This document shows, piece after piece, positions 4,882 to 40,299 of a stretch of 64,000 nt of DNA. The position numbers were made by a program, and so were the translations under genes. The stretch comes from an uncultured Ruminiclostridium sp. (lineage in GTDB: Bacteria > Bacillota > Clostridia > Oscillospirales > Ruminococcaceae). The stretch spans positions 119,398 through 183,397 of the forward strand of contig CANQXF010000004.1 in the NCBI GenBank assembly GCA_947627695.1, read 5' to 3'. Numbering within the stretch: position 1 is the first letter of the stretch; the number at the start of each line of letters is the position of its first letter. The notes beneath the pieces are model-generated. The model saw only the letters and a program-made list of their open reading frames with translations, was not told the DNA's origin and searched no databases.

Positions 4882-5541
4882 TTACCCTTTCTTCAGCTTT
4901 TCCACCATTTTCGACATATCTTCCGCCTTGAACAGACAGCTCCCGCTTACCAGCACGTCAGCGCCCGCCCTTATGGCAAGGGGAGCAGTTTCGGGATTTA
5001 TCCCGCCGTCCACCTGTATCATCAAAGAGGGATTTACTTTATCTGCGTACTCCCGTATCTGCGTTACCTTAGGCAGAGTAAAGTCCAGAAAGCCCTGCCC
5101 GCCGTACCCCGGCTCCACCGTCATCACCAGTATCATCTCAACCTTGTGAACGTAAGGCAGAACCGCCTCAGCGGGAGTATTTGGCTTTATTGAAAGCCCC
5201 GCCATTATCCCCGCGTCGTGTATCAGCCCGATAGTCTGCTCAATATCGCTGTCGCTTTCCGTGTGGAAGGTTATCATATTTGAGCCGCTTTCAGCGAAGA
5301 ACTTTATCTGCCTGTCGGGGCGGGACACCATAAGGTGCGTATCCCTGAAAAAATCCCCCTTCAACGCCTTCTGAAAAGGCGCGCCGTAAGAGATGTTCTC
5401 AACAAAGCTGCCGTCCATAACGTCAATGTGTATCCAGTCAGCTCCCGCTTTCAGCGCTCTTTCCGCCTCCTCGCCCGCTTTCGACAGGTCGCAGCTAAGC
5501 AGAGAGGCGCTTATTTTTATTTTGTTATCTGAAATTTCCAT
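4882..5541 (-). CDS. rpe: Ribulose-phosphate 3-epimerase
   Basis: 'ISASLLSCDLSKAGEE', 'DWIHIDVMDGSFV', 'MTVEPGYGGQGF', 'QVDGGINPETA' family motifs. Confidence 0.97.
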   Translation of the reverse strand: MEISDNKIKISASLLSCDLSKAGEEAERALKAGADWIHIDVMDGSFVENISYGAPFQKALKGDFFRDTHLMVSRPDRQIKFFAESGSNMITFHTESDSDIEQTIGLIHDAGIMAGLSIKPNTPAEAVLPYVHKVEMILVMTVEPGYGGQGFLDFTLPKVTQIREYADKVNPSLMIQVDGGINPETAPLAIRAGADVLVSGSCLFKAEDMSKMVEKLKKG

Positions 5542-5626
5542 AATTATCTCCTTAGCTTAAGAGATATACACATTTATTGTACCTCATTTTTGGAGTTTAG
5601 TCAAGCTAAATATTAGCATAATAATA

Positions 5627-5655
5627 TTGATTTTTTCGGTCAAAAATGGTATAAT
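5627..5655 (+). promoter_or_regulatory. Putative sigma-A promoter TTGATT-N17-TATAAT
   Basis: TTGATT 5627-5632 and TATAAT 5650-5655, upstream of the 5702 ORF. Confidence 0.65.
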
Positions 5656-5701
5656 CTGTTCATAACGGAAAATATTCTTCCGCAAAGCAAGGAGAACGCC
5701 A

Positions 5702-6115
5702 ATGACTTACCGCAAATATCCCGACCAAGCCGCCGTTGACCGCCATATCGCAGAAAAAGAGCCCCTTCTCATAGCCGTATCCTTTGACGGGGAAACGGTG
5801 CTGGTATCGCATATAGACGACAGCGTGGAACATCATATCCTGCTGTCCCATTTTGGACTGCCGCCGCAGGACATTGATAAATATTTCCGCATAGCGGTGG
5901 ACGAGGAAAGCGCAGAGTGGACTTTCGTCTGCCCGCCCGATTACAAGGGGATAACAGACAGGAAACGCCGTATAACCGAATTTTACAACGACGGGATAAC
6001 GGCGATATCCCGTGTGCTGTCGGATATAGGATACTTCTCCGACATAAGGATACCGAGGCGGTACAGACGGCATTTTGACGTGATAGGTGACGACTCGTCA
6101 TATCTGCCTTACTAA
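5702..6115 (+). CDS. Hypothetical protein
   Basis: 137 aa ORF with promoter and AAGGAGAACGCC RBS; no family recognised. Confidence 0.7.
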   Translation: MTYRKYPDQAAVDRHIAEKEPLLIAVSFDGETVLVSHIDDSVEHHILLSHFGLPPQDIDKYFRIAVDEESAEWTFVCPPDYKGITDRKRRITEFYNDGITAISRVLSDIGYFSDIRIPRRYRRHFDVIGDDSSYLPY

Positions 6116-6215
6116 TTCACAAAAATTTCACTTGCATTTTTCTTACAAACCCTGTATAATATTTCTTACAGCAAGACGCAAAGAAAAAACACGTAAAGGA
6201 AAGGAAATCAACATT

Positions 6216-6563
6216 ATGGATCTTCAGCTTCTGGTAGATACATCAAACGCAGCCGCCAACAACGGTCAGGCAAATATGTGGGTGACGCTGGCAACGACGA
6301 TACTCCCCATAGCGCTTATGGTGCTTATATTTTACTTTCTGCTTATCCGTCCCGAGAAAAAGCGCTCCAAGAAAATGAAGGAAATGCTGGACAATCTTCA
6401 GGTAGCGGACGAGGTTGTTACCACCGGCGGGATAATCGGCCGCGTTCTCTCCGTCAAAGAGGACACCGTCCTTATCGAGACAGGCAGCGACCGCACAAGA
6501 TTGAGAGTTCTCCGTTCGTCTATTGCGGAAAACAGAACGGTACACGACGATGTTTCAGCGTAA
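6216..6563 (+). CDS. yajC: Preprotein translocase subunit YajC
   Basis: MDLQLLVDTSN... 'FYFLLIRPEKKRSKKMKEMLDNLQVADEVVTTGGIIGRV'; RBS AAAGGAAAGG. ORF-track start 6087 is too early. Confidence 0.95.
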   Translation: MDLQLLVDTSNAAANNGQANMWVTLATTILPIALMVLIFYFLLIRPEKKRSKKMKEMLDNLQVADEVVTTGGIIGRVLSVKEDTVLIETGSDRTRLRVLRSSIAENRTVHDDVSA

Positions 6564-32134: not shown

Positions 32135-35100
32135 ATGAATAAGAACGATAAAATTTTCAAAACGAAAGCGGTGATACGATTGAAGAAAATATTATGTCTT
32201 GCCATGTCCTTTGTGCTTATCTGCCTGCTGCTTGCGGGCTGCGGGAAAGACGGGAGCGAAGCTGTCACCGATATCCGTCAGCTTGACGGGCAGACTATCG
32301 GCGTAATGACCGGCTCCAGCTTTGACGTTCATACCGATAATCTGATCGAGGGCGCAGAAAAGCAGTATTACGACCGTATCACGGATCTGGCTCTTGCTGT
32401 TGAGCAGGGGAAGATTGCCGCTTTTTTGATGGACGAGCCTATCGCCCGTCTGCTTTGCAAGCAAAATCAAGCGGTGACCTACATTCCCGAGGTGCTGGTG
32501 CAGGAGAGCTATGCGGCCGCCTTTTCAAAAACACAGCGCGGCGCGGCGCTGAGGGACGAGTATAACGAATTTCTGGCGCAGATAAGGGCGGACGGCACGC
32601 TGGAGGAGATAGACAAGATCTGGATAGGCACGGACGAAAGCAAAAAGGTGGTTGAGGACTGGACGGCCTTCCCCGCAGAGAACGGCGTCGTCAGAATGGC
32701 GGTAAAAAACGACGTCGAGCCCTTCTGCTATATCAAGGACGGACGTATCGTCGGGTATGATATCGATATTATGGTACGTTTCTGCAAGGCCTACGGCTAT
32801 GGGCTTGAGGTGACGGGCGCAGAGATATCGTCTATTTTCGCAGGTCTTGCCACAGGTACATATGATGTATCGGCCAATGGTATGACCGTGACGGAGGAAC
32901 GTGCGGAAAGCGTTAACTTCGCCGAGCCGAACTACACAGGCGGCGTGGTGGCGGTGGTTGCAAATCACGGGCAATTTGATGTGCGCTTCAGAACGTTTCA
33001 GGATTTTGAGGGCAAAACCGTGGGCGTTATGTCAGGCAGCATTTCGGACCAGCTTGTCAGCTCCGTGGTAAGCGGCTGCGAATTTAAGTATTACGACGAC
33101 GCTTCTGCTTCGCTTCTTGCGCTTCAGTCGGGGGCGCTTGACGCGGTGGCGCACGATATGCCCGTTGCGCAGCTGGCGGTGGCAAGGCAGCCCGATCTGG
33201 CGATATTCCCCCAAACGGTATCCCCCGACACTTACGGCCTCGGTCTTCAGAAGGACAGCCCGCTGACGGATAAGATCAGCGCCATTATTGAGAGATATAC
33301 TGAGGACGGCACGCTGGACGCCCTGCGGGAAAAATGGCTGAGCGCCGACGAAAGCAAAAAGACCATAGACGTGGGCGAGTATGACGCGCCCAACGGCACC
33401 CTGCGTTATGCCCATGACTCAACGCTTGAGCCTATGAGCTATGTTGGAGGAAACGGTCAGTCCCTCGGCTATGAGGTCGAGCTGGTCTCGCTAATTGCCA
33501 AAGAGCTTGGAATGAAGCTTGAGATAACCCAAAGCACATTCGGTTCGCTGATACAGATGTTAAGCAGCGGCAGGGCGGATATCGTATCGGGCGCCATGAG
33601 CATAACCGACGAGAGGCGGGAGAGCATAGATTTCCCCACCACTCATTACGTGGGCGGTATGACGCTCATCGTTCGGGGCGAAGATATGGGAATGGCGGTT
33701 GAGACGGAAGAAACGGACTTCTGGACAGGGCTGACAAACAGCTTTTATAAGAATTTCATTCAGGAAAACCGCTGGCAGATGATACTTTCGGGTCTTGCCG
33801 TAACGTTTATTATCTCCGTCTTTTCGGCTTTGTTCGGAACGGTGCTGGGCTTTGGTCTGTGTATGGTGCGCCGCAGCCGCAACAAAATCATCTCAAAGAT
33901 AACGGCGGCATTTATCCGTCTGATACAGGGAATTCCCGTGCTGGTGCTGTTGATGGTGCTTTTCTACGTCGTGCTTGCGGGCGCAAGGCTCAGCGGTATC
34001 GTCGTGTCGATAATAGGCTTCTCTATCAACTTCGCCGTCTATGTTTCCGAAATGATACGCACGGGTATCAACGCCGTTGACGCAGGTCAGTGGGAGGCGG
34101 CTTCCGCTATGGGCTTCGGGCGGGTAAAGACCTTCACGAAAATCATCGCCCCGCAGGCGGCAAGGCACGTTTTGCCCGTATATAAAGGCGAATTTATCTC
34201 TATGATAAAAATGACGTCCGTGGTGGGATATATCGCGGTGCAGGATCTGACAAAAGCGACAGACCTTATCCGCAGCCGCACCTTTGAGGCGTTCTTCCCG
34301 CTGATACTGACTGCGGTTCTGTATTTCATACTGGCATGGTGCCTGACCTTTCTTCTGGGACTTGCGGAAAGGAAGATAGACCCCCACCGCCGACGCAGAG
34401 AGCTAAAGGGAATTAACAGGAATATTTCTCTGTCGGAAATTTCTGAGGAGCCGAAAGCCCCCCAAAGCGGGGAGCCTGTAATCGTGATTTCCCACCTGAA
34501 GAAGGCGTTTCCCAACGCAACTCCCCTGAAAGACGTCAACGCCGTCATAAACAGAGGGGACGTTATCTCCATCATCGGACCTTCAGGCACGGGCAAAAGC
34601 ACCTTACTGCGCTGTATCAACCGACTTGAAACGCCGACGGAGGGACAGATAGAGGTGTTCGGTCAGCAGGTCACAGGCGTGAAGATGTCGCAGCTTGGCG
34701 AAGTCCGCCGCCGTATGGGAATGGTATTCCAGAGCTTCAACCTGTTTGCGCATCTGACGGTCATAGAAAACATTATGCTCGGCCCCGTAGAGCTGCTGGG
34801 CTGTTCCCGACAGCAGGCCTATGAACGGGGAATGCGCTTGCTGGCAAGCGTAGGGCTGGCGGAAAAGGAGCTGAACTACCCCGACGAGCTTTCTGGCGGT
34901 CAGAAACAGAGAGTCGCCATTGCGCGCACTCTGGGAATGCAGCCCGAGATCGTGCTCTTTGACGAGCCCACAAGCGCGCTGGACCCCACTATGGTGGGAG
35001 AGGTTCTGGCGGTCATACACGGTCTTGCCCAGCAGGGGCTCACCATGCTTATTGTAACCCACGAGATGAAGTTTGCTCGTGACGTATCAACGAGGGTATT

Positions 35101-35563
35101 TTATATGGACGAGGGTGTCGTTTATGAGGAGGGAACGCCGAAGCAGGTGTTCGACAACCCGAAGACAGACCGCTGTCGGGCGTTCGTACGTCGCCTGAAG
35201 ACCCTCCGCCTCGATATTGCTTCCAAGGAGTTTGACTTCATCGGCGCGGCGGCGGATATCGACCGCTTTGCCCGCAAGCAGCTTCTGAGCGCGCGGCAGT
35301 CCCTCAAGTATCAGCAAATTTTTGAAGAGCTTTGCGTGACGAGCATTCTGCCGACCCTGCCGGACGACAGGTGCAGTCTTAGCTTTGACGCCCTTTGCAG
35401 TGAAGACGGAAGCGAATGTGAGGCTGTTATTCGTTGGAACGGGGAGGAGTTCGACCCGTTGACCCAAGGAGATGAGCTCAGCGCGTCCTTGGCTCTCAGC
35501 AGAACCAAGAGCAGCGCCCACGCCTATGCCGACGGGATAAACACTGTGACTATCGTATTTTAA
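32135..35563 (+). CDS. Fused amino-acid ABC transporter: binding lobes + permease + ATPase + C-terminal GHKL-like region
   Basis: Lipobox LLAGC; permease '[27 protein letters not shown]'; ATPase '[15 protein letters not shown]', '[19 protein letters not shown]', '[11 protein letters not shown]'. Confidence 0.92.
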
Positions 35564-35581
35564 AGCTTTTGAGGTGAAAAA

Positions 35582-37264
35582 ATGAACATCAAGACAAAAA
35601 AGAAAAAACAGCCGTGCATTTTGGCTGTCATACTTGCGGCTACGCTGCTTTTGGGCGGGTGCAATGCGAATGATAAGGCGCAAGCCGACGACATCATAAT
35701 TTTATACACCAACGACGTGCATTGCGCCGTTGATGAAGATATCGGCTACGCGGGGCTTGCGGCGTATAAGAAATGGTGCGGGGAAAATACCCCTTACGTC
35801 ACGCTGGTAGACTGCGGGGACGCTCTGCACGGGGACGTTATCGGCGCAGTTTCCAAGGGCGAATATCCCGCGGAGCTTATGAACCGCGCAGGATATGACT
35901 TTGCGGTGCTGGGAGACCAGGAGTTCGGCTACGGAATGGAACAGCTCGATAGGCTTATGGAGATAAGCGGCGCACAGTATCTCGGCTGCAATATTCGCTA
36001 TACGGGGACGGAAGACGTGGCGTTTCTCTCTCGGCTCCTGCCGTATAAGATAGTATCCTACGGCGAGGTAAAGGTCGCCTTTATAGGGGTGTCAACGCCT
36101 GAGAGCATAGTAAAATCCGTTCCGACCTACTTTTGCGACCAGAACGGAAACTATGTATATGACTTCTGCGGCGGAAGCGGGGAGGCATTATACAGCCGCG
36201 TTCAGGAGAACGTGGACGCCTGTCTGAAAGACGGCGCGGATTACGTCGTAATTCTTGCTCATCTGGGAACGGACGAGTCCTCCTCGCCCTTTACGTCCAC
36301 CGAGCTTATCGCAAATACAAGGGGGATAGACGCCGTGCTGGACGGCAATTCTCTGAGCGAAATTTCCTGTAACGTGGTTAAAAATGCGGACGGGGAAAAG
36401 GTGGTTTTGTCCTCCACAGGTATGGGGCTCAACAATATCGGCTGCCTCACCATAACCGCGAACGGGAATATACAGACGGGGCTTATCGAGAGCTATCCTG
36501 ATAAGGACAGCGAAATGTCAGGCTTTATAGAAAGCATTGAAAAAGAGCTTGAAGCCGAGCTGACGGAAAGCGTCGGCGTATCAGAGGTAACGCTTACGAC
36601 CGTTTCCGATTCGGGAATGCGCCTTATCAGGAACAGGGAGACCAATCTTGGGGATTTCTGCGCGGACGCGTACAAAGCCGTATCGGGGGCGGATATCGCG
36701 CTTGTGAACGGCGGCGGAATCCGCGGGGATATTCTTGCGGGAGAGGTCACCTATGGGGATATTCTCGGCGTGCACCCTTACGGAAATTCCCTGTGCGTGG
36801 TAAAGGCAACGGGGCAGGAAATACTCGACGCTCTTGAAATGGCGAGCCGCTTCTGCCTGCCAAACCCGAACGACGGGGAAAACGCAGTGGGGGAATGCGG
36901 AGGCTTTTTGCAGGTGTCGGGGCTTAAATATACAATAGACACCTCTGTTGGATCCACTGTGGAGACGGACGAGCAGGAGAATTTCCTCTCCTGCGGGGAC
37001 GATCGCAGAGTAAAGGACGTTATGGTCCTTGATGAGAACGGCAGCTATACGGAGCTTCAGCCCGACAAGATATATACGGTAGCGTCCCACAACTACCTTA
37101 TCAAGGAAGGCGGGGACGGACTGAATATGTTTATGGACAACGAGCTTACGATAGATGAGGGAATGACGGATTATGAGATACTTATGACCTATCTCACCGA
37201 CGAGCTGAACGGAACTGTGGGGAATGAGTACGCTCTGCCGCAGGGACGGATAGAGATCAGATAA
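35582..37264 (+). CDS. 5'-nucleotidase/UshA-like metallophosphatase lipoprotein
   Basis: 'LLLGGCNAND' lipobox, 'ILYTNDVHCAVD', 'VDCGDALHGD', 'LVNGGGIRGDI'. Confidence 0.92.
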   Translation: MNIKTKKKKQPCILAVILAATLLLGGCNANDKAQADDIIILYTNDVHCAVDEDIGYAGLAAYKKWCGENTPYVTLVDCGDALHGDVIGAVSKGEYPAELMNRAGYDFAVLGDQEFGYGMEQLDRLMEISGAQYLGCNIRYTGTEDVAFLSRLLPYKIVSYGEVKVAFIGVSTPESIVKSVPTYFCDQNGNYVYDFCGGSGEALYSRVQENVDACLKDGADYVVILAHLGTDESSSPFTSTELIANTRGIDAVLDGNSLSEISCNVVKNADGEKVVLSSTGMGLNNIGCLTITANGNIQTGLIESYPDKDSEMSGFIESIEKELEAELTESVGVSEVTLTTVSDSGMRLIRNRETNLGDFCADAYKAVSGADIALVNGGGIRGDILAGEVTYGDILGVHPYGNSLCVVKATGQEILDALEMASRFCLPNPNDGENAVGECGGFLQVSGLKYTIDTSVGSTVETDEQENFLSCGDDRRVKDVMVLDENGSYTELQPDKIYTVASHNYLIKEGGDGLNMFMDNELTIDEGMTDYEILMTYLTDELNGTVGNEYALPQGRIEIR

Positions 37265-37327
37265 AGACACAGCCCTGCTTGTTATATTTCTTTATGATCC
37301 GCTCGGAGCGCGAAACGGCATAAGCTC

Positions 37328-38614
37328 TCATAATGCTATCACCAGCTTGAACCAGCCGTCCTCTGCGCTGAAGGAATAAAAAGCGTTATACTTTTCGCAG
37401 AAAGCCGTGATGGAGCGTGTGCCGATACCGTGACCTGATCTGTCCGATTGCGGGAGCCCGTTTCTGCCGAAGGATATCTGCCCGCAGTATGGGTTTTCTA
37501 TCTCAAACATAAACTGCGGCTTATGAATACACCGAATTATGATTTTTCGCTGTTCTTTCGGAAGCATCTCACAGGCGTTTACAGCATTTTCCAGAGCGTT
37601 GGAAAAGCATATCGCAAGCTCGGCGGCGTCGACGGGCAGCTTTTCTGGTAGGGAAAGCCTCATTTCCACCTCAATGCCCGAGCGCTCAGCACGTCCTGAA
37701 TATGCGGCAAGCGTGGCGTTCAGGATAGGGTCGCCGCAATAGCGGGCAGATGCGGAGATGTCGTTTCGCTCATAGACCTCTTTTATATAATCAAGGATCG
37801 CTTCGGCATTTTCCTCCCGCGCAAAATCGGAGATTGCGGAAAGCGTTTGCCGAATGCTCCGCCTTGCGTTCCTTACCTCCTCCGCTTTCCTCTCGGCGTC
37901 CTTTGCCTGTTTTTTGTTGTTCTCTATTTGCAGCCTTAAAAGATCGCGGTCCTGCTCCTCCATTCGGTATCGGTATTGGAGCCGCAGGTATTGGAAAACG
38001 GCGTAGTAGATGATGAGGAGGACTGCGCCCGAGAGGGCAAACAGGACGGGAAAGGAGTCATTCTGCGTGTAATGCGCAGGGTACAGCGCAAGCACCATTG
38101 TAAGTATGAAAAAAGAGCAGGGTATCATAGCCAGTATCCCCCAGCCCCCGATGACCGTGTCCGCAATATTCAGAAAAACGTTTCGCAGGAAGAATGCCTC
38201 CGCAAAGATCACTATAAGGTAGGCGGAAAGAAGCAGCAGAAGATTTGTCCCGGAGCCGCCCCCAAGCAGTGTGTTTAGCTGCGTCACGCCGACAGTGAGG
38301 TAGAGGGACAGCAAAAGCTCAGACAAACAGCAGAAAATATGCCTTGAAAGGGACTCGTCCGCGATAAGAAAGGTTATGACGATTCCAGGCAGGGAGATAG
38401 TTAACACACAGCTGCGCAAAAAGGGCATAAAGCCCAGAAACCGTATGCAAAGGACGGAAAAAGCGATGGAATAAACCACGTATCCAATGATGATAAGCAG
38501 ATTTTTCCTTTTATTTTCCTTTATTCTGCTGATAGAAACGACCATACCCAGTGTGCCGAATATGCAGACAAGCACCCTTAATGTCTGATATACGGTATTA
38601 TTATCAAAAATCAT
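37328..38614 (-). CDS. AgrC-like kinase with ATPase domain but without the phospho-acceptor His
   Basis: 'NALENAVNACEML' N-box and 'GHGIGTRSI' present; DHp reads NARRSIRQTLSAI. Confidence 0.85.
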   Translation of the reverse strand: MIFDNNTVYQTLRVLVCIFGTLGMVVSISRIKENKRKNLLIIIGYVVYSIAFSVLCIRFLGFMPFLRSCVLTISLPGIVITFLIADESLSRHIFCCLSELLLSLYLTVGVTQLNTLLGGGSGTNLLLLLSAYLIVIFAEAFFLRNVFLNIADTVIGGWGILAMIPCSFFILTMVLALYPAHYTQNDSFPVLFALSGAVLLIIYYAVFQYLRLQYRYRMEEQDRDLLRLQIENNKKQAKDAERKAEEVRNARRSIRQTLSAISDFAREENAEAILDYIKEVYERNDISASARYCGDPILNATLAAYSGRAERSGIEVEMRLSLPEKLPVDAAELAICFSNALENAVNACEMLPKEQRKIIIRCIHKPQFMFEIENPYCGQISFGRNGLPQSDRSGHGIGTRSITAFCEKYNAFYSFSAEDGWFKLVIAL

Positions 38615-38678
38615 AGCTTGCCGCCTGTTCTGCCTGTGTTACAGATGGGCGGATTTTTATAGACCTCTGTACATACAT

Positions 38679-39563
38679 TCATTCCCGCGCTTCTCCTTTC
38701 TCATCTGACAGCTCCGCGGCATTATCCACAAAATCAAGTATCGCCTGCGTGTCGCCGCTTTCCGCCAGGGCTGCGACTGTGGAGAGAACGTGGCGCAGGT
38801 CGTGCCGAATGATCTTCGTTTGCTTTTCGAGCGCCTCAATATCGGCGTTTTCTTTTTTGATGTTTTCCAGCTGAAGCTCCATTATCTCCTCATTTTGCTT
38901 TGACTGAAGCCTGCGGTACTGCAAGGACAGATAGCTTCCTATGGAGAAGTATACGGCGATAATGACGGCGCCCAGCAGGTAAAGCGTGACAACGCTCAAC
39001 ACCCGATTCGTATAATGCTCAGGGTAAAGGGCAGTCGTCACGGAAAGGACGATGAACGCACAGGGGATAAGGGAAAGAACGCCCCAGCCCTTTTTGATTA
39101 TGCCGACAAAATCAAGCCATATGCGCCTCACAAAGTAAAAATCAAACAGCACCGCCAGAAAATAGGAAAGCAGGCGCAGCAGAATGTCAGAAAGCTCGTT
39201 TCCGTTCAGGGCGGTGTTTATAAGTGTAACTGTGGCGGCGATATAGAGAGATACAAGAATATGCGTCGCCCCTGTAAAGACGAGCTTTGAAAACGGCTCG
39301 TCAGAGAGCTTGCAGAAAAGAAGGACTGCGGGGCAGGATACGGTGAGGATAAAAATTCTCAGAAAGCTCTCATAACCGAAGCAGTAAATGATCAGAAAAG
39401 TTGAGAGGACAACAAAAACCGCACAGCCAGAAATCACCGCAATTCCTGCGGCTTTTTTCCGAATTATTTTAAAACGGGTTGTGGACGCCATCATAGCGAC
39501 CGTGCCCGCAAAGATTATCAGAAACTTCAGGACTAAAAAAACAAGGTTATCCTCAAAAAGCAC
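38679..39563 (-). CDS. AgrC-like kinase with DHp His but without ATPase domain
   Basis: 'KIIRHDLRHVLSTVAALAESGDTQAILDFVDN' then stops after ~20 residues; only 64 bp to the next start codon. Confidence 0.85.
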   Translation of the reverse strand: MLFEDNLVFLVLKFLIIFAGTVAMMASTTRFKIIRKKAAGIAVISGCAVFVVLSTFLIIYCFGYESFLRIFILTVSCPAVLLFCKLSDEPFSKLVFTGATHILVSLYIAATVTLINTALNGNELSDILLRLLSYFLAVLFDFYFVRRIWLDFVGIIKKGWGVLSLIPCAFIVLSVTTALYPEHYTNRVLSVVTLYLLGAVIIAVYFSIGSYLSLQYRRLQSKQNEEIMELQLENIKKENADIEALEKQTKIIRHDLRHVLSTVAALAESGDTQAILDFVDNAAELSDEKGEARE

Positions 39564-40299
39564 GGTATTTCCCTCCGTTCAGCCAAAAGGACGCCCATTC
39601 CTTCTTGACAGAGTCATATACGCGGCGGGGAATTGGGACCCGCAGATTTCCCGTTAAAACCATATCCGTTTTCGTTACCTCCATAACGTGAGCCAGATTT
39701 ACCACGAACGAGGAGCCGACAAGGAGCATTTCGTTATGAGAGAGAAGGTCTGATACCGCGTCGGTAAAAGAGCCGTTGAACGTAATGCCCGCTATTATCC
39801 TGCCGTCAGCCATATAGTAGCAGATACGTTTTCCTGTGCGCTCCGCATACCGAATTTCTGCAACGGGGAGGATACGGACGCTGTCCGCGGTCTTGACTGA
39901 AACCGTCTCCTGCTTTGTTCGGGAAAGAGAGGAGAACGCTTTGTCGAGGCTTCGGAAGAACAGCGGCTTGTCCACAGGCTTTAAGAGGTAATCAAGAGCG
40001 TCCACCCGATAGGAGTCAAGCGCAAAGTCGGGAGATACGGTGAGGTAGATGAACATTCCCTGATCGTCACGCCTGCGCAGCGCCGTTCCAAGCTCAATGC
40101 CGTCCATCTCGGGCATAATGCAGTCGAAGATATAAAGGTCGAAGCCCCCGTATTCGTCCACGTGGTTCAAAAGCTCTTTTCCGAAGCAAAAGGACGACAG
40201 CGAAAGCGAACGGTCAGGATTTGCCTGTTTGTACTGCCCGATAAGATCTTTTATCGCTTCGCGGCACGATCTTTCATCATCGCATAATGCAATCTGCAA
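39553..40299 (-). CDS. LytTR-family response regulator
   Basis: Receiver 'IALCDDE..LYIFDCIMPEMDGIEL..DYLLKPVDKP' plus LytTR-like C-term; probable TTG start at 40299 after AAGGGGCGAAAACC. Confidence 0.9.
   Translation of the reverse strand: MQIALCDDERSCREAIKDLIGQYKQANPDRSLSLSSFCFGKELLNHVDEYGGFDLYIFDCIMPEMDGIELGTALRRRDDQGMFIYLTVSPDFALDSYRVDALDYLLKPVDKPLFFRSLDKAFSSLSRTKQETVSVKTADSVRILPVAEIRYAERTGKRICYYMADGRIIAGITFNGSFTDAVSDLLSHNEMLLVGSSFVVNLAHVMEVTKTDMVLTGNLRVPIPRRVYDSVKKEWASFWLNGGKYRAF

Follow-up and report, generated by a model that had tools for sequence, protein, structure and literature searches.

Two adjacent paralogous genes of an uncultured Ruminiclostridium sp. appear to divide the working parts of one histidine kinase between them. 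The genes lie in the window, the whole 64,000-nucleotide stretch of DNA analyzed here, and their products are referred to as HK1 and HK2. HK1 has the phospho-acceptor histidine without working ATPase motifs, and HK2 has these motifs without the histidine, which is the sequence pattern of a split kinase. HK1 and HK2 are probably the halves of a single membrane-bound kinase of the AgrC type (GHKL, HATPase_c_5), in which HK2 would phosphorylate HK1 and the phosphoryl group would then pass to a LytTR regulator. A more far-reaching reading is a receptor kinase of the membrane that works only as a heteromer and carries two different sensors, one for the catalytic half and one for the phospho-acceptor half. 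It would have arisen by duplication and complementary loss and would act as a coincidence detector or a ratio sensor. We consider it plausible without quite favoring it. The original prediction already spoke of an obligate heteromeric kinase that phosphorylates in trans. We infer these properties from the complementary sequences: the two proteins would form a complex, phosphate would move from HK2 to HK1, and neither protein would work without the other. The target genes suggested below are likewise inferred.

The locus is a minus-strand operon in which the regulator gene comes first, followed by HK1 and then HK2, and all three open reading frames lie where they had been placed before. The regulator (39553..40299, 248 aa, TTG start) was predicted to be a LytTR protein beside the kinases, and Pfam bears this out with matches to Response_reg (51 bits) and LytTR (25 bits). 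It has both parts of a LytTR response regulator, a receiver with a phospho-acceptor aspartate and a LytTR DNA-binding domain. The aspartate (Asp59), the acidic pocket, and the receiver threonine and lysine are kept at all seven loci where the pair was found. HK1 (38679..39563, minus strand, 294 aa) begins with a GTG codon just inside the 3' end of the regulator gene, so that the two genes overlap by 11 bp. HK1 is separated from HK2 (37328..38614, minus strand, 428 aa) by a 64-bp gap (38615..38678). The two kinases are paralogues with 33% identity over 293 aa, which run from residue 1 through the DHp domain, and the alignment ends where the ATPase domain starts.

HK1 consists of a multi-pass membrane sensor, a linker and a DHp domain. 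Its phospho-acceptor, His254 (codon 38802..38804, minus strand), lies within the motif RHDLRH. As predicted, the protein has this histidine yet stops before any ATPase domain, and a Pfam search of the window HK1 gave no credible ATPase match. The claim that no hidden remnant of the domain fits 3' of HK1 also held: the gap is only 64 bp, and the domain is cleanly missing in an alignment of the junction. An error of sequencing or assembly does not explain the short HK1, because the same truncation is common to three diverged genomes (84-96% identity). HK2 combines a paralogous membrane sensor with a DHp domain that has no histidine and with a complete GHKL (HATPase_c_5) domain. In the alignment, HK1 His254 pairs with HK2 Arg252 (codon 37859..37861, minus strand), and the phospho-acceptor site reads RRSIRQ in HK2. 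Arginine or glutamine occupies this position in 7/7 HK2 proteins, and none of them has a histidine anywhere in residues 206-290, which cover the linker and DHp. The catalytic ATP-binding domain (CA) of HK2 was placed at 37331..37741 by Pfam and conserved boxes; its N box (37586-37600), G1 box (EIENPY, 37487-37504) and G2 box (GHGIG, 37421-37435) are all on the minus strand. The HATPase_c_5 score of the window HK2 is 55.9 bits, and scores across the loci are 49.9-55.9 bits, all above the curated PF14501 cut-off of 22. HK2 therefore belongs to the AgrC/HATPase_c_5 family by its domain. In this family the DHp histidine and the ATPase domain share one polypeptide, but the HK2 proteins have arginine or glutamine at the histidine position, and thus neither HK1 nor HK2 by itself is a complete AgrC-type kinase.

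The pair was expected to recur in other genomes if it is functional, and it does so in the order regulator, HK1, HK2 at seven loci, each in a different genome. These are the window and loci L037 (genome G068), L038, L039, L040, L041 (G223) and L087 (G550). L037-L041 come from metagenome assemblies with isolate names (Lapin-) that suggest a rabbit-gut origin, and L087, which belongs to a different family within the order, was added by whole-genome searches. The phospho-acceptor histidine is present in 7/7 HK1 and 0/7 HK2. The next residue is aspartate in every HK1, as opposed to S, N, D or G in HK2; this aspartate matters for the chemistry of this kinase class. All seven HK2 proteins retain the N-box asparagine, the G1 asparagine and the G2 His-Gly-x-Gly. 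The HK1 ATPase domain is deleted in three of the seven (window, L037 and L039). The other four (L038, L040, L041 and L087) have a full-length HK1 of 426-431 residues with a catalytic-like domain, the junction alignment showing about 137 codons beyond the end of the window HK1 that encode a degenerate ATPase domain. The G1 asparagine is lost in 4/4 of these proteins (TYP, AYP or ACP replaces ENP), as is the GHGxG (G2) box, and the N-box asparagine is lost in one (L087, NMLESA). Their HATPase_c_5 scores are 14.7-24.8 bits against 50-56 for HK2, and pass the cut-off only in L038 and L041; the truncated HK1 proteins give no HATPase_c_5 match. To judge from these motifs, ATP binding has probably been lost in the HK1 of all four relatives.

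The original prediction had named two complete kinases in related genomes as the finding that would make the split a local decay. Since the ATP-binding motifs of HK1 are already missing in all four relatives with the longer protein, local decay from two complete kinases is ruled out. The histidine and all boxes are intact in each of 15 kinases outside the pair, 14 of them homologues from other genomes and one from the regulator-kinase-cstA operon of the window genome. Set against these, the complementarity at the seven loci is therefore ancestral to the pair. One locus among the single kinases fetched, L063, has a tandem kinase pair with both copies complete, and tandem kinase genes alone thus do not mean splitting. 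Two complete kinases of this group also lie near each other in other family members (L063 5671-9260, L066 6082-11514). One such kinase has a different membrane domain and a nearly identical catalytic part, as if by sensor exchange or gene conversion of the catalytic half. The HK1/HK2 pair is rare, occurring in 2/71 genomes of the genus and 1/10 in the family of G550, and sampling of the class turned up no additional pair beyond the order. Given this rarity and the relatedness of the seven loci, the complementary losses probably represent a few events and not seven.

In a maximum-likelihood tree, the seven HK1 proteins form one clade (100/100) and the seven HK2 proteins another (100/100), and the two join in a clade (100/98) apart from the other kinases, with a midpoint root only. 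This fits a single ancient duplication that predates the divergence of the loci. Pairwise dN/dS values (Nei-Gojobori) are 0.04-0.31 in every domain, truncated HK1 included, indicating purifying selection throughout. The three truncated HK1 genes have values of 0.10-0.19 in the sensor and 0.04-0.20 in the linker and DHp, and the HK2 CA has values of at most 0.17. The degenerate CA of full-length HK1, with values of 0.13-0.22, is still under purifying selection and hence has some role, which the split-kinase model does not explain. Amino-acid differences were also compared as an HK1/HK2 ratio over the same species pairs, a comparison from which time and tree drop out. The two sensors evolve at equal rates (0.99, 0.78-1.29), and the DHp core of HK1 is about half as variable as that of HK2 (0.45, 0.24-0.74). 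For the CA, HK1 is the copy that tends to vary more (1.37, 0.99-1.90, an interval that touches 0.99). The strongest constraint in each protein thus seems to fall where its working residues remain, a pattern that fits a division of labor.

The following sequence of events can be proposed. A complete kinase would have been duplicated in tandem to give HK1 and HK2. HK2 would then have lost the phospho-acceptor histidine and retained the ATP-binding catalytic domain. HK1 would have retained the histidine, losing its nucleotide-binding motifs first and, in the window lineage, the whole catalytic domain later. That motif loss preceded deletion is the simplest reading, an order that the truncated copies themselves cannot show. 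In the present-day complex, HK1 and HK2 would join through the membrane, the linker and the DHp helices, and the HK2 catalytic domain would phosphorylate HK1 His254 in trans across the heteromer. The phosphoryl group of HK1~P would then move on to the LytTR regulator, at Asp59. In AgrC-type kinases one subunit of the dimer phosphorylates the other, as a one-to-one heterodimer would also require. For the models of HK1 and HK2 alike, the best PDB fold match is the cytoplasmic region of AgrC; the models are of low confidence (mean pLDDT 59, CA near 80) and were used for the CA fold only. A sequence search for a relative of solved structure found none, and the membrane sensors of HK1 and HK2 gave no match to a known ligand-binding family.

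Other readings of the locus have to be weighed against a split kinase. HK1 could be a membrane-bound phosphotransferase of the Spo0B kind, or a response regulator phosphatase, fed by other kinases, with HK2 reduced to a regulatory role as a pseudokinase and its ATPase domain inactive towards HK1. We regard this as unlikely. Membrane-bound forms of Spo0B do exist (PMC12826061), the window genome has other GHKL kinases that are possible donors, and the degenerate yet conserved CA of HK1 in four relatives resembles the state of Spo0B. The combination that defines Spo0B, a DHp histidine with a GHKL-like domain unable to bind ATP, may occur in those relatives, where the motifs are lost and the fold is kept in a low-confidence model; the domain is absent in the window. 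HK2 is probably catalytic, because its catalytic motifs are fully kept and constraint on its CA tends to exceed that on the HK1 CA. HK1 and HK2 are always adjacent, each is without exactly what the other keeps, and a Spo0F-like single receiver protein was not seen in the operon.

A further reading, in our estimate less probable still, has HK1 alone bind the regulator or remove its phosphate, as a sequestering partner or a DHp phosphatase, with no phosphoryl transfer. ATP binding by HK2 would be an allosteric switch of HK1, and the output would be control of regulator dephosphorylation instead of kinase activity. A strictly conserved HK1 DHp would be needed here as well, and CheA3 of R. sphaeroides has a CheY6-P phosphatase activity separate from the CheA4 kinase. 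However, the histidine and following aspartate shared by all HK1 proteins are what phosphotransfer would lead one to expect, and the regulator would still require a source of phosphoryl groups. That both copies of a duplicated kinase pair are degenerating without function, as the truncation of HK1 and the stepwise loss of its ATPase motifs might suggest, is very improbable. Frames are open in all seven genomes and the active-site residues of the regulator are intact. Values of dN/dS are well below 1 in all domains, even in truncated HK1, and pure decay is ruled out on that ground.

The surroundings of the split kinase offer a guess at its role. A 5'-nucleotidase-like gene (35582..37264, plus strand) is convergent with the kinase operon in the window. 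The transporter gene cstA adjoins HK2 at five of the seven loci (L038, at 4931-6370; L039; L040; L041; L087), and at all of these except L039 it is recorded as convergent with HK2, between HK2 and the rest of the convergent cluster. The window and L037 retain the kinase pair but have no cstA between HK2 and the 5'-nucleotidase gene (37265-37327 in the window). The gene after cstA is the 5'-nucleotidase gene in L038, L040 and L087 and a purine-type permease in L041. The 5'-nucleotidase gene is followed by an ABC transporter gene in L038 and L040; in L087 a purine-type permease lies between these two genes. The sole cstA of the window genome is on contig C1, in a second operon of LytTR regulator, complete GHKL kinase and cstA (L045 4102-7726; about 33.1-36.7 kb on the contig). 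A large 5'-nucleotidase-like protein is encoded next after that operon. In E. coli, the LytTR system BtsSR is described as sensing pyruvate and controlling a CstA-family transporter (PMC10653868, PMC5552118). Given this precedent, the cstA and transport neighbors in the relatives and the second LytTR-cstA operon of the window genome, a role of the pair in nutrient uptake is a reasonable guess.

The transport block as a whole combines an ABC transporter, a 5'-nucleotidase, a purine-type permease and cstA in varying combinations, is convergent with the regulator and the two kinase genes (window 32135-40299; L037-L041, L087) and is patchily distributed across the bacterial order. Its flanks differ: the window and L037 have an RNase Y gene there, L038 a recombinase gene and L040 a murD-like gene. 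The patchy distribution and the different flanks suggest horizontal transfer of the transport block and the three signaling genes as a unit. An origin from a mobile plasmid was considered and set aside, no close plasmid homologue having been found. Within the block, a 1142-aa open reading frame (window 32135-35563, plus strand; also in L037), judged by eye, is an apparent fusion of several amino-acid-type periplasmic binding domains with an ABC permease and an ABC ATPase.

Classical experiments established that a copy of a histidine kinase without the histidine and a copy without ATP binding can make up for each other's defect when paired in a heterodimer. At this locus, such an arrangement seems to have become fixed by evolution in a membrane receptor. 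Three stages are visible: a complete kinase in the outgroups, a crippled second ATPase domain in the relatives and a deleted domain in the window. If the reading is true, the locus shows a homodimeric receptor becoming an obligate heteromer with two sensory inputs.

A paralogous AgrC-type pair of this kind was not found in the open-licence literature on heteromeric or pseudo histidine kinases, and several known systems share parts of the arrangement. CheA3/CheA4 of Rhodobacter sphaeroides is a biochemically proven split histidine kinase, and EnvZ stays active with its DHp and ATPase domains on separate polypeptides (PMC3591291). A survey reported that 3.66% of HisKA proteins have no HATPase domain and that 1.7% of HisKA proteins are possibly split and bifunctional (PMC3591291). 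As in CheA3/CheA4, the histidine and the ATP-binding domain are on two proteins with complementary losses, and neither half is expected to autophosphorylate alone. CheA3/CheA4, however, is of the CheA class, belongs to a cytoplasmic chemosensory cluster and has its histidine on an HPt-type P1 domain, whereas HK1 and HK2 are both AgrC-type membrane sensors and the histidine protein has a true DHp domain beside a LytTR regulator. Hik36-Hik43 of Synechocystis, a split kinase with a two-hybrid interaction (PMC7656254), likewise divides a kinase between two genes with one shared regulator. Unlike HK1/HK2, it is of the CheA type, its genes are far apart, and its two proteins are not paralogues that each carry a sensor.

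Rv0601c/Rv0600c of Mycobacterium tuberculosis resembles HK1/HK2 in its adjacent genes, with the DHp histidine on one and the ATPase domain on the other, and in its single regulator. It is one kinase gene broken in two and hence has one sensor, in contrast to the two duplicated full sensors of HK1/HK2. The two proteins cooperate with TcrA (PMC9274095). AgrC/AgrA of Staphylococcus aureus and other HATPase_c_5 kinases have the same multi-pass membrane sensor, DHp, GHKL domain and LytTR regulator, but AgrC is a single complete kinase. Spo0B, a dimeric histidine phosphotransferase, is believed to descend from a kinase whose ability to bind ATP was lost (PMC12826061). The HK1 proteins of L038, L040, L041 and L087 are like it in combining a DHp histidine with a catalytic domain that has probably lost ATP binding. 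Spo0B takes its phosphate from Spo0F~P, whereas HK1 adjoins a paralogous catalytic partner and retains its sensor. Split kinases were thus already known; what is new here is that each half is a membrane receptor with a sensor of its own, that the two are paralogues of the AgrC-type class, and that an intermediate with a degenerate ATPase domain is present in living relatives.
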